Origin: Aquibacillus albus
Lineage (GTDB): Bacteria; Bacillota; Bacilli; Bacillales; Amphibacillaceae
Reading direction: 5' to 3'
NCBI RefSeq assembly: GCF_016908325.1
Contig: NZ_JAFBDR010000003.1
Span: forward strand, 186,001-250,000
DNA length: 64,000 nucleotides
The first letter of the stretch is position 1, and each line of letters starts with the position of its first letter. The notes under the pieces were generated by a model. The model ran no database searches. It had not been told where the DNA came from and saw nothing but the letters and a program-made list of their open reading frames with translations. This document shows, in pieces, positions 27,058-30,594 of the stretch. The position numbers and the translations under genes were made by a program.

Positions 27058-29409
27058 TTGGGGAAAACAAAGCACACTGGTCCTGTCAAACTACCTAAAT
27101 CACTAGAACCGGATTTATGGGTCAGCAAAGTTCCATTTGGTCTTGGGAAAATAAAACCACACCATATTCGTGACACGATGAAGGTTGCTTGGGAAAATAA
27201 AGACAACCTTGGATATGCAGCCCGGATATTAAGAAAAGGAGTCTGTGATGGTTGTGCACTCGGAGTTTTAGGCTTAAAGGATCAAACCTTAACTGGTCCT
27301 CATCTCTGTACAACAAGATTGAACGTTTTACGCTTAAATACGATGCCAGCAATGAAGGAAAAAGATATCCATAGGGATGTCGATGAATTAAGAAAAATGA
27401 GTAGTACAGAACTCCGTAAATTAGGACGAATCCCTTACCCATTAATTCGGAAGCCGGGTGAAAAGCAATTTAGGCGTTTATCATGGGATGAAGCACTGGA
27501 TTTGATTTCCAATAAAATAAAACAGTTAGATCCTAAACAATTAGCATTTTACTTAACGTCTAGAGGGATTACGAACGAAACCTATTATACAGCCGGTAAA
27601 GTTGCCCGTTTCTTAGGAACGAATAATATCGACAATGCATCGCGGATATGTCACTCCCCCTCCAAAACTGCATTAAGCAGATCACTTGGTATCGGGGCTT
27701 CCAGCTGTAATTACAAGGATTGGATTGGAACAGATGTCCTCTTATTTTGGGGATCTGTCGCAGCAAACAATCAACCAGTTTCGACAAAATATATGTATGC
27801 AGCCAAAAGAAAAGGTACAAAAATCATTATGATCAACCCTTACTATGAGCCATCAATGGATAAGTACTGGATTCCATCTATCCCTGATTCAGCATTGTTT
27901 GGTACAAAAATTGCAGATGATGTGTATCAAGTCAACATTGGCGGAGATATTGCCTTTATGCACGGTATCATCAAGCACTGGTTTGAAATGGAAGAAATAA
28001 AGCCAGGTTCAGCGATTAATCATGAATTTGTCAACGCTCACGTTAATGGTTTTGATGAATTAAAAGAAAAAGCAACTTCATATAATTGGGAGCAGCTAGA
28101 GCAATCTTCCGGCATTGCGAAAGAACGCATTGTTGAGCTATCAGAGCTATTAGCAAAATCAAATTCAGGTATATTTGTCTGGTCGATGGGACTTACACAG
28201 CATCGGTTCGGAACAGATAATGTGTCACAGGTTGCAAACCTTGCCATGCTTCGTGGATTTATTGGACGAGAACACTGTGGTGTTATGCCTATTCGCGGAC
28301 ATTCTGGAGTACAGGGATCTGGAGAAATGGGAGCAGATCCTTTCGTGTTACCAGGCGGAGGTATGGACGATGCAAATAAAAGACGGGTGGAACAGCATTG
28401 GGGATTCGAGATTCCAGATTGGCAAGGAGACATTGTTGGTGTCTCACTTGAAAACACGTTATTGCCTGATGATCACGATCGCAAGCTAAAACTCTATTAT
28501 ATGTCTGGCGGAAACTTCCTCGAAACGATGCCTAATCCTAACTTTGTCAAGCAGTGCCTAGAAAACATAGATATTCGCGTCCATCAGGATATCATTTTTA
28601 ATACATCTACATTGGTTGATGCAAAAGAAGCTGTTGTTGTCTTACCAGCAATGACAAGGTATGAACAACCAGGCGGGGGCACTTCTACTTCTACAGAGCG
28701 GATGGTATACTTATCACCGGAAATAGAAGGTCCTCGAATGGAGGAGGCACGTGCAGAATGGGAAATCTACTTGGATTTAGCTAGACGTGTCAAGCCTGAC
28801 CAAAAGCATTTAGTTCATTTTAAAAATGCTGAACACATTCGTGACGAGATTTCTCGCGCAAATCCTAATTATGATGGGATTCAACATCTAGACCCAGAAG
28901 GTGATGTCTTTCAATGGGGCGGTGCATGGCTTTGTGAAGGTGGGATTTGTCCAACACCAGATGGAAAAGGCAATTTGATCCCAGTGGAAATCCCAGAGCT
29001 TCGTAAACCCGAAGGTCATTTTTATGTAACGACAAGAAGAGGAAAGCAGTTTAACTCAATGATTTACAGTGACTCAGACCCATTTAATAATGCAGATCGT
29101 TATGATGTACTAATGAATGAAGAGGATGGAAAAAAGTATCATATTAATCAAGGCGATGCTGTTGTAGTCTATAATCAATGTGGTACATTTAATGGACGTG
29201 CCAAATTTGTCCCAGTAAAAGCAGGTAATATTGAGTTACATTGGCCTGAAGGAAATATTCTCATTTCAAAAGGTGTATTTGAAAAATATGCAGGAATACC
29301 GGAATATAATGCGTCGGTGATCGTAGAAAAAGCCGAAACATATTATGCCCATAAAGATACGAAATATGTGGAGAAACGCATAGAAGAATTAGAAACAGAA
29401 ACACATTAA
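27058..29409 (+). CDS. FdhF/YdeP family molybdopterin oxidoreductase
   Basis: 783-aa protein with the molybdopterin oxidoreductase fold and a C-terminal molydopterin-dinucleotide-binding domain. N-terminal Cys63-x2-Cys66 with Cys84 (GVCDGCALGV, PHLCTTRL) may hold an iron-sulfur cluster. It matches the formate-dehydrogenase-alpha-like YdeP branch, whose substrate is largely unknown; there is no partner electron-transfer subunit nearby. TTG start, GGAGGGG upstream. Single gene with a terminator after it. Confidence 0.85.
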   Translation: MGKTKHTGPVKLPKSLEPDLWVSKVPFGLGKIKPHHIRDTMKVAWENKDNLGYAARILRKGVCDGCALGVLGLKDQTLTGPHLCTTRLNVLRLNTMPAMKEKDIHRDVDELRKMSSTELRKLGRIPYPLIRKPGEKQFRRLSWDEALDLISNKIKQLDPKQLAFYLTSRGITNETYYTAGKVARFLGTNNIDNASRICHSPSKTALSRSLGIGASSCNYKDWIGTDVLLFWGSVAANNQPVSTKYMYAAKRKGTKIIMINPYYEPSMDKYWIPSIPDSALFGTKIADDVYQVNIGGDIAFMHGIIKHWFEMEEIKPGSAINHEFVNAHVNGFDELKEKATSYNWEQLEQSSGIAKERIVELSELLAKSNSGIFVWSMGLTQHRFGTDNVSQVANLAMLRGFIGREHCGVMPIRGHSGVQGSGEMGADPFVLPGGGMDDANKRRVEQHWGFEIPDWQGDIVGVSLENTLLPDDHDRKLKLYYMSGGNFLETMPNPNFVKQCLENIDIRVHQDIIFNTSTLVDAKEAVVVLPAMTRYEQPGGGTSTSTERMVYLSPEIEGPRMEEARAEWEIYLDLARRVKPDQKHLVHFKNAEHIRDEISRANPNYDGIQHLDPEGDVFQWGGAWLCEGGICPTPDGKGNLIPVEIPELRKPEGHFYVTTRRGKQFNSMIYSDSDPFNNADRYDVLMNEEDGKKYHINQGDAVVVYNQCGTFNGRAKFVPVKAGNIELHWPEGNILISKGVFEKYAGIPEYNASVIVEKAETYYAHKDTKYVEKRIEELETETH

Positions 29410-29494: not shown

Positions 29495-29628
29495 CATTTA
29501 AAAAGTTTAATATAGGAATCGACACACTTTGCTAAGTTTTGTCGAATTATTTTTATTTTTATCTTATATAAGCTAAACTATAGGTTATAGTAAAAAAAGA
29601 AAAAATGGAACGTGATGGAGGGACCAAC

Positions 29629-30594
29629 GTGCCGAACACATACCTTGATTCAAAATTAAAAGTTTTTTCATTAAGTTCAAACCGCCCGTTAGCAGAGGAA
29701 ATTGCTGCAAATATAGGAATAGAGCTAGGTAGATGCTCCTTAAAAAAATTTAGCGACGGAGAAATTCAAATTAACATTGAAGAAAGTGTAAGAGGGTGCG
29801 ATGTATTTGTTATTCAGTCAACAAGTGACCCAGTAAATGAGCATATAATGGAATTGCTCGTGATGATTGATACATTAAAACGTGCTTCAGTGAAAACGAT
29901 TAATGTCGTCATCCCTTACTATGGGTATGCACGACAGGATCGTAAAGCTCGTGCAAGAGAACCAATAACAGCTAAGCTAATTGCTGATTTAATACAAGTA
30001 TCTGGAGCTTCACGTGTTATTTCAGTAGATATCCACGCACCACAAGCACAGGGATTCTTTAACATTCCTGTTGATCAACTAGTAGGTATCCGTATTCTAG
30101 CTGACTATTTTAAACAAAAGCAGCTGGATGATATTGTAATCGTTTCTCCTGACCATGCAAGTGTAACAAGAGCACGACAAATGGCCGATCAATTAAAAGC
30201 ACCGATTGCAATTATTGACAACCGCGGACCACGCGAGCAAATTCCTGGAGAATCGAAAGTAAATGTTGTTGGTGAGATTGAAGGAAAAACTGCCATTTTA
30301 ATTGATGATATTGTTGATACTGCAACAAGGATAACTCGCGGTACAAATGCGTTAATGGAAAATGGTGCAAGAGAAGTTTATGCCTGCTGTACTCATCCAG
30401 TACTATCCGGACCAGCAATTGAACGGATTAGTGAGTCACCTTTGATGGAGCTAGTTGCTACAAACACGATACCACTGTCCGAAGAAAAAAAGCTCGATAA
30501 AATTACCCAATTAACTGTAGCTCCATTACTAAGTGATGCAATTATACGGGTTTATGAAGAACAACCTGTTAGTCCACTATTTAACTCCATTTAA
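29629..30594 (+). CDS. Ribose-phosphate pyrophosphokinase paralogue with altered active-site loops
   Basis: 321-aa protein aligning end to end with B. subtilis Prs ([37 protein letters not shown]). Canonical Prs makes PRPP from ATP and ribose-5-phosphate. Three normally invariant loops differ here: PDHGG is PDHAS, the flexible catalytic loop DKRRPRP is DNRGPRE (Asn198, Gly200), and the ribose-phosphate loop DTAGT is DTATR (230-234). It may be regulatory, inactive or changed in substrate. GTG 29629 follows GGAGG; the ATG 29605 has no ribosome binding site. The housekeeping prs usually sits beside glmU, so this is probably a second copy. Confidence 0.85.

Follow-up and report, generated by a model that had tools for sequence, protein, structure and literature searches.

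The gene analysed here, carried by a window of 64,000 nucleotides from Aquibacillus albus (the window being the whole stretch of DNA that was examined), is a genuine and selected paralogue of the PRPP synthetase gene prs, with counterparts in a total of 51 among the 156 genomes searched from the same Bacillales family. Its product retains the whole-length homology and the predicted fold of a class I PRPP synthetase (EC 2.7.6.1), but all three of its catalytic and ribose 5-phosphate (R5P) loops are altered; a second full-length Prs is encoded in the same genome. Judging from the residues exchanged in these loops, the paralogue very probably lacks PRPP synthetase activity, and instead of forming PRPP it is likely either to regulate the true enzyme or to have taken on a new function. 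The best single reading, to which we would give an even chance, is that of a pseudoenzyme subunit which partners the canonical Prs in the manner of the PRPSAP proteins. The synthesis of PRPP is the entry point to nucleotides, histidine, tryptophan and NAD.

The features of the gene and of its surroundings are collected in Table 1. The longer, mechanically delimited reading frame of the paralogue begins at ATG 29605; since a Shine-Dalgarno-like sequence is found just 5' of the GTG codon, the latter, which the earlier note had chosen, is the better start. Scanned from ATG 29605, the protein scores 477.1 bits against the NCBIfam model NF002618, the cut-off of which is 460, so that metabolic models would count a ribose-phosphate diphosphokinase here. 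It is a whole-length homologue of the B. subtilis Prs chain 1dkr (6.8e-145), which is also the best match of its predicted fold. The AlphaFold model (mean pLDDT 79.9; five models spanning 57.2-79.9) supports the predicted fold alone, the flexible and RF loops being of low confidence.

Table 1. The prs paralogue, its altered loops and its upstream neighbour; positions are those of the window.
Feature	Position	Strand	Remark
FdhF/YdeP-type molybdopterin oxidoreductase, upstream neighbour of the paralogue	27058..29409	+	
GGAGGG, Shine-Dalgarno-like, 5' of the GTG start	29617..29622	+	read by eye
prs paralogue, 321 residues from GTG	29629..30594	+	all three catalytic/R5P loops altered
Pyrophosphate loop PDHAS (canonical PDHGG)	30148..30162	+	
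Flexible catalytic loop DNRGPRE (canonical DKRRPRP)	30217..30237	+	
R5P loop DDIVDTATR (canonical DDIIDTAGT)	30304..30330	+	

The earlier note had suggested looking for a canonical prs elsewhere in the genome, and one is present (G000:C27:21570-22514, L001), flanked by glmU-like and rplY/ctc-like genes, as named by reading their translations. Its product has PDHGG, DKRRPRP and DTAGT intact and shares 229 of 317 aligned residues (72%) with the window copy. Set against this partner, the three motif exchanges that the earlier note had described by comparison with the B. subtilis sequence are exact, and an alignment with B. subtilis Prs itself (the PDB 1dkr chain) displays the same differences. 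Relative to its own canonical Prs, the window copy also has a two-residue insertion adjoining the flexible loop. The R5P loop DTxGT of class I Prs is absent, being DTATR in the window and DT[AG]xR in all 51 members of the group; the first Thr of this loop is, we assume, the equivalent of human T225.

The trait extends across the family, which had escaped the earlier note. A whole-protein search of 156 family genomes (E<=1e-60; table counted by eye) revealed one full-length Prs in 103 genomes and two in the other 53. Sequences were obtained for all 53 second copies and for 51 of the 53 first copies, those of G026 and G030 having been seen as matches with sequences outside the extracted set. Altered loops are found in the second copy of 51 of the 53 two-copy genomes, spread over 20 of the 46 sampled genera (genus codes counted by eye). 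All 51 extracted first copies, 49 of which are partners of an altered copy, are intact at these sites, and an intact class I Prs accompanies the altered copy in each of the 15 named genomes searched. The same gene is carried, at 83%, by another genome of the same genus, and Aquibacillus salsiterrae is, among the matches listed, a carrier of the same altered motifs; Aquibacillus-like species are halophiles.

In the 51 paralogues, the position of B. subtilis Arg199 is occupied by Gly in 48, Asn in two and Ser in one, and that of Lys197 by Arg in 38, Lys in 12 and Asn only in the window copy. The loss of both catalytic residues reported in the earlier note is thus correct for the window, which has Asn and Gly, and the loss of the Arg is common to the group, but the exchange of Lys for Asn is confined to one copy of 51. 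The second Gly of DHGG is Ser, and the last Thr of DTAGT is Arg, in all 51; the Gly that precedes this Thr is replaced by Arg (30), Thr (12), His (3), Asn (3), Ser (1), Trp (1) or Tyr (1).

These counts rest on copies retrieved by whole-protein searches. The paralogues of G023, G025 and G126, as well as L213, were reached by patterns too, yet lie within the whole-protein two-copy sets. A previous count of Thr to Arg in 31 of 31 rows was discarded, since ten of these rows, as well as all 11 from Lactobacillales and Listeria, had been found with DNA patterns that required Arg (or Ser). The genome-wide pattern scan also returned, among the matches listed, loop-intact Prs with Ser there and other phosphoribosyltransferases, and its output represents candidates rather than counts. 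An order-wide pattern search matched 16 of 397 genomes; 13 of these matches were such paralogues, of which six belong to different families within the order, and three were unrelated. Its backwards control matched eight genomes (by eye).

Two further kinds of copy deserve mention. The extra Prs of genus g24 (G077:C1:827737-828672, L288, and G089:C3:934412-935344, L287) has DKRRP and DTAGT intact, carries PDNGG and LHARQ, and forms a clade of two of its own (support 100, starred). As for the altered copies, 50 of the 51 are full length, with 315-321 residues from the aligned start, the sole truncated one (G024:C13:49008-49727, L289) having 242 residues, DTGWR and RGTS. This copy is perhaps starting to decay, or perhaps reflects an assembly fault in a genome that is 83% complete.

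Conservation was compared column by column in 48 canonical and 50 paralogue rows, with G024, G077 and G089 left out and G026 and G030 lacking a canonical row. The 185 columns that are invariant in canonical Prs divide into 90 kept in at least 49 of the 50 paralogues, 14 lost in at least 80% of them and 81 partly changed. Ten of the 14 lost columns fall in the three loops (Gly178, Arg200, Pro203, Val205, Glu207, Val208, Met209, Ala230, Gly231 and Thr232, in canonical numbering with Met), which is more than chance, and the other four lie outside them, at 140, 260, 264 and 299. FSDGE, RQDRK, the His of LHAPQ and the Pro, Asp and His of PDH are present in 50 of 50 paralogues. Four gained residues reach at least 90%, namely Ser178 and Arg232 (each 50/50), Gly200 (47/50) and Gly230 (46/50), at the last of which the window copy keeps Ala. 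With regard to the conservation of subunit interfaces, blocks 41-60 and 81-120 show a mean identity of 84-89% between the two copies of one genome.

The paralogues are kept by purifying selection. In ten species pairs, pN ranges from 0.005 to 0.099 against a pS of 0.29-0.79, and dN/dS is 0.015-0.077 in nine of them and undefined in one, these ratios being rough because several dS values are above 2. Identity is higher between canonical copies than between paralogues in all ten pairs.

The paralogue stands alone, in varying neighbourhoods and distant from prs. In the window, a terminator-like hairpin (identified by eye) separates it from the FdhF/YdeP-type gene, which is found upstream of the paralogue in three of 21 loci compared, including those of the same-genus G001 and of G010. 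No neighbour family occurs in more than eight of the 21 loci; an operon link to a pathway was accordingly discarded, the 21 neighbourhoods having no conserved neighbour genes. Nothing consistent was found upstream of the paralogue in these 21 loci when a PurR-box-like core was sought. A sigma-A promoter-like element, AACTTG...TTTTTG[CA]GATAAT, lies 5' of 22 of the 51 paralogues, compared with a mean of 0.26 and a maximum of 3 in 200 rounds of Markov shuffling, the expression having been picked post hoc. It is confined to genera g7, g9, g14, g32, g33 and g34, is not present at the window copy, begins about 47 bases ahead of the start codon in L055, for example, and has an odd fixed T-tract preceding the -10.

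Second copies lacking loop residues also occur in the order around Listeria cossartiae, in which two Prs were found in 40 of 70 genomes searched. Lys197, Arg199 or both are missing in all 40 second copies (L290-L328 and L213; by eye): Arg199 is missing in 39, the Listeria loop being one residue shorter and the alignment there unsure, and the remaining one, L328, keeps Arg199 and has Gln for Lys197. Arg replaces the last Thr of the R5P loop in 14 of the 40 (by eye, including L213), and in one common type PDH is replaced by PKN and, in most cases, DTAGT by NTGxT. The first copies of 11 Lactobacillales and Listeria genomes and of G589 (L329) all have DKRRP and DT[AG]GT. Some of these proteins are presumably those called 'putative ribose-phosphate pyrophosphokinase 2' in UniProt/HAMAP, and we take L213 and its like to be the counterparts of Listeria lmo0509, under the name Prs2. 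In the accessible portions of the papers examined, lmo0509 figures merely as a flanking or differentially expressed gene.

In a tree calculated from all columns, the altered copies of the order form one clade (31 rows, support 99), apart from the second copies of Lactobacillales and Listeria. A second tree, from which the three loops were removed, comprises 91 rows, including canonical, loop-intact and outgroup rows. Its 23 altered rows of the order consist of 20 of the 51 family copies and three pattern-found ones, and its 39 second copies of Lactobacillales and Listeria consist of 34 of the 40 whole-protein ones and five pattern-found ones, six near-copies or short rows being omitted. The 23 altered copies again form a clade (support 84), sister to the family's own canonical Prs (support 92), neither value being starred; in a smaller masked tree, with a partly pattern-found set, the altered copies do not form a single clade (two changes). 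Given the pairing with the family's canonical Prs, descent from a working enzyme seems likely, the duplication of the canonical prs having probably taken place early in the diversification of this Bacillales family.

When the altered copies of both orders were all placed in one clade, the AU test rejected the arrangement (p-AU 0.0004; 0.033 with the smaller, partly pattern-found set); it did not reject a clade made up of the Lactobacillales and Listeria copies alone (p-AU 0.38). Grouping the family copies with the Listeria type gave a p-AU of 0.50 and a likelihood no worse than that of the free tree, and grouping them with the Lactobacillaceae type or with the PKN type was not rejected either (p-AU 0.14 in both cases). 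Independent origins can therefore not be presented as fact, as kinship with each type taken singly survives the AU tests; more than one origin is no more than suggested by these comparisons.

A pseudoenzyme subunit of this kind would keep the Prs-like fold and the ATP and Mg motifs, and would form PRPP at no useful rate because both the Arg199 loop and the loop for the 5'-phosphate of R5P are altered. It would join the canonical Prs in mixed dimers or hexamers and lend its intact ATP-side motif (FSDGE) to a neighbouring active subunit, its own site holding Mg-nucleotide without turnover; PRPP output, and the allosteric response too, would be lowered or tuned, much as by the PRPSAP subunits of animals. 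According to the accessible text of PMC12238573, ATP is coordinated by the FLAG region of one subunit, whereas the other subunit contributes its RF, PP, CF and R5P loops to catalysis. The paralogue keeps the FLAG motif, which it would lend to a neighbour, and the RF motif, and its PP, CF and R5P loops are altered; a regulatory partner subunit might have such an appearance.

Several observations argue for this reading: the recurrence of one signature in the second copies of 51 of the 53 genomes with two Prs, with an intact partner in 49 of the 49 extracted; purifying selection, combined with ATP-side motifs preserved in 50 of 50 and a 1dkr-like predicted fold; and the loss of loop residues in 40 of 40 second copies of Lactobacillales and Listeria. 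The loss of Arg199 in 51 of 51 counts in the same direction, as the human K194A and R196A variants have no detectable activity, in line, it is stated there, with the B. subtilis variants K197A and R199A (PMC4363470, as far as its text is available). On the other hand, the gene stands alone, away from prs and in varying neighbourhoods, 103 of the 156 family genomes have a single full-length Prs, and the gained residues do not drift, a constancy that an inactive site would not require. Moreover, the Arg gained in the R5P loop might serve in place of the lost Arg199.

The near invariance of the gained residues makes an enzyme with a changed acceptor the main rival of the pseudoenzyme subunit, and a serious one, although we consider it less likely. 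The paralogue would then be a neofunctionalized Mg-ATP-dependent diphosphokinase, or a nucleotide-binding transferase, with an R5P pocket rebuilt (DTGxR, DHGS, RGPR) for another acceptor and a new Arg in place of the one lost from the flexible loop. Complete ATP and metal motifs, a basic residue at the Lys197 position in 50 of 51 copies and the exchange of Thr for Arg in 14 of the 40 Lactobacillales and Listeria second copies all speak for such an enzyme, but a conserved neighbourhood pointing to a pathway is absent from the 21 loci, the window copy has not even a basic residue (Asn), and we know of no enzyme with this loop set, which also counts against it. Furthermore, PRPP synthetase has no detectable activity once the equivalent of Arg199 alone is lost (PMC4363470, available text).

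The same mutational data bear on a further possibility, an active or weakly active PRPP synthetase isozyme serving, for example, under stress or high salt. Its strong conservation, its identity of 72% to the canonical Prs and its score above the NCBIfam equivalog cut-off for ribose-phosphate diphosphokinase would suit an isozyme, but the Arg199 equivalent is missing and the Gly-Thr of the R5P loop is replaced in all 51 copies, and Ala mutants at both flexible-loop residues are without detectable activity in the accessible part of PMC4363470; we regard this as improbable, more so than a changed acceptor. A decaying pseudogene or an assembly artefact is barely credible. The short copy of the 83% complete genome G024 and the lower identity of the paralogues in ten of ten pairs could be so explained, but the other 50 copies are full length, dN/dS lies far below 1 and the replacing residues are nearly invariant, and decay was ruled out on these three grounds.

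In the accessible text of PMC12238573 a single PRPS is described as typical of bacteria. A preprint of June 2026 (PMC13252144), in its available part, surveys over 35,000 PRPS sequences and reports 37 pseudoenzyme events in eukaryotes, the universally conserved catalytic residues being retained across the major prokaryotic PRPS classes; bacteria are depicted as giving rise to new enzyme classes and eukaryotes to pseudoenzymes that tune PRPS. If the copies of Bacilli are pseudoenzymes, this picture needs changing, and they would offer simple bacterial two-protein systems in which to study the tuning of Prs by an inactive subunit, a question for which the published PRPSAP structures are homomeric (PMC12238573, available text). 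The novelty for bacteria proposed in the earlier note is plausible, as no bacterial case emerged from the literature searched and the events of the preprint, in the part available, are confined to eukaryotes; likewise, no functional study of a bacterial inactive Prs was recognized in the freely accessible literature searched. A wider proposal, that the class Bacilli evolved PRPSAP-like regulatory subunits independently of eukaryotes, perhaps repeatedly, by removal of the same Arg and rebuilding of the R5P loop (recurrently Thr to Arg), so that mixed active and inactive oligomers would tune PRPP, is put forward tentatively, its chances being somewhat less than even.

Compared with B. subtilis Prs (PDB entries 1dkr, 1dku and 1ibs), the paralogue is alike in whole-length homology, predicted fold and ATP and metal motifs, and differs in its flexible, pyrophosphate and R5P loops, altered at otherwise invariant sites. 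The second Prs of genus g24 (G077, G089) is also an extra Prs of the family, but with intact loops. The Prs2 proteins of Lactobacillales and Listeria likewise accompany another Prs, lack Lys197 and/or Arg199 in 40 of 40 cases and have DTGxR or DTAxR in 14 of 40; in contrast to the family group, they fall into several types, 43-57% identical to the canonical Prs of the window genome (11 copies), and the AU test, which speaks against a clade uniting every altered copy, leaves room for kinship of the Listeria type taken by itself.

With PRPSAP1/2 and other eukaryotic PRPS pseudoenzymes, as described in the accessible parts of PMC12238573 and PMC13252144, the paralogue shares its nature as a class I Prs duplicate beside an intact one, with catalytic-loop residues lost and the FLAG-region motif kept. 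Unlike PRPSAP, it is bacterial and pairs with its family's own Prs, it has no long catalytic-loop insert, the window copy having only two extra residues, and the residues gained in its loops hardly vary within the group. The replacements listed for human PRPSAP2 in the same available text affect D171, K194, R196, N200 and T225, whereas the paralogues keep the Asp of PDH, the first Thr of the R5P loop and the RF-loop motif, and the Lys position is basic in 50 of 51, the window copy being the exception. The likeness to PRPSAP drawn in the earlier note therefore does not extend to these retained residues or to the insert, but the overall pattern does resemble that of the animal proteins (PMC12238573, accessible text).
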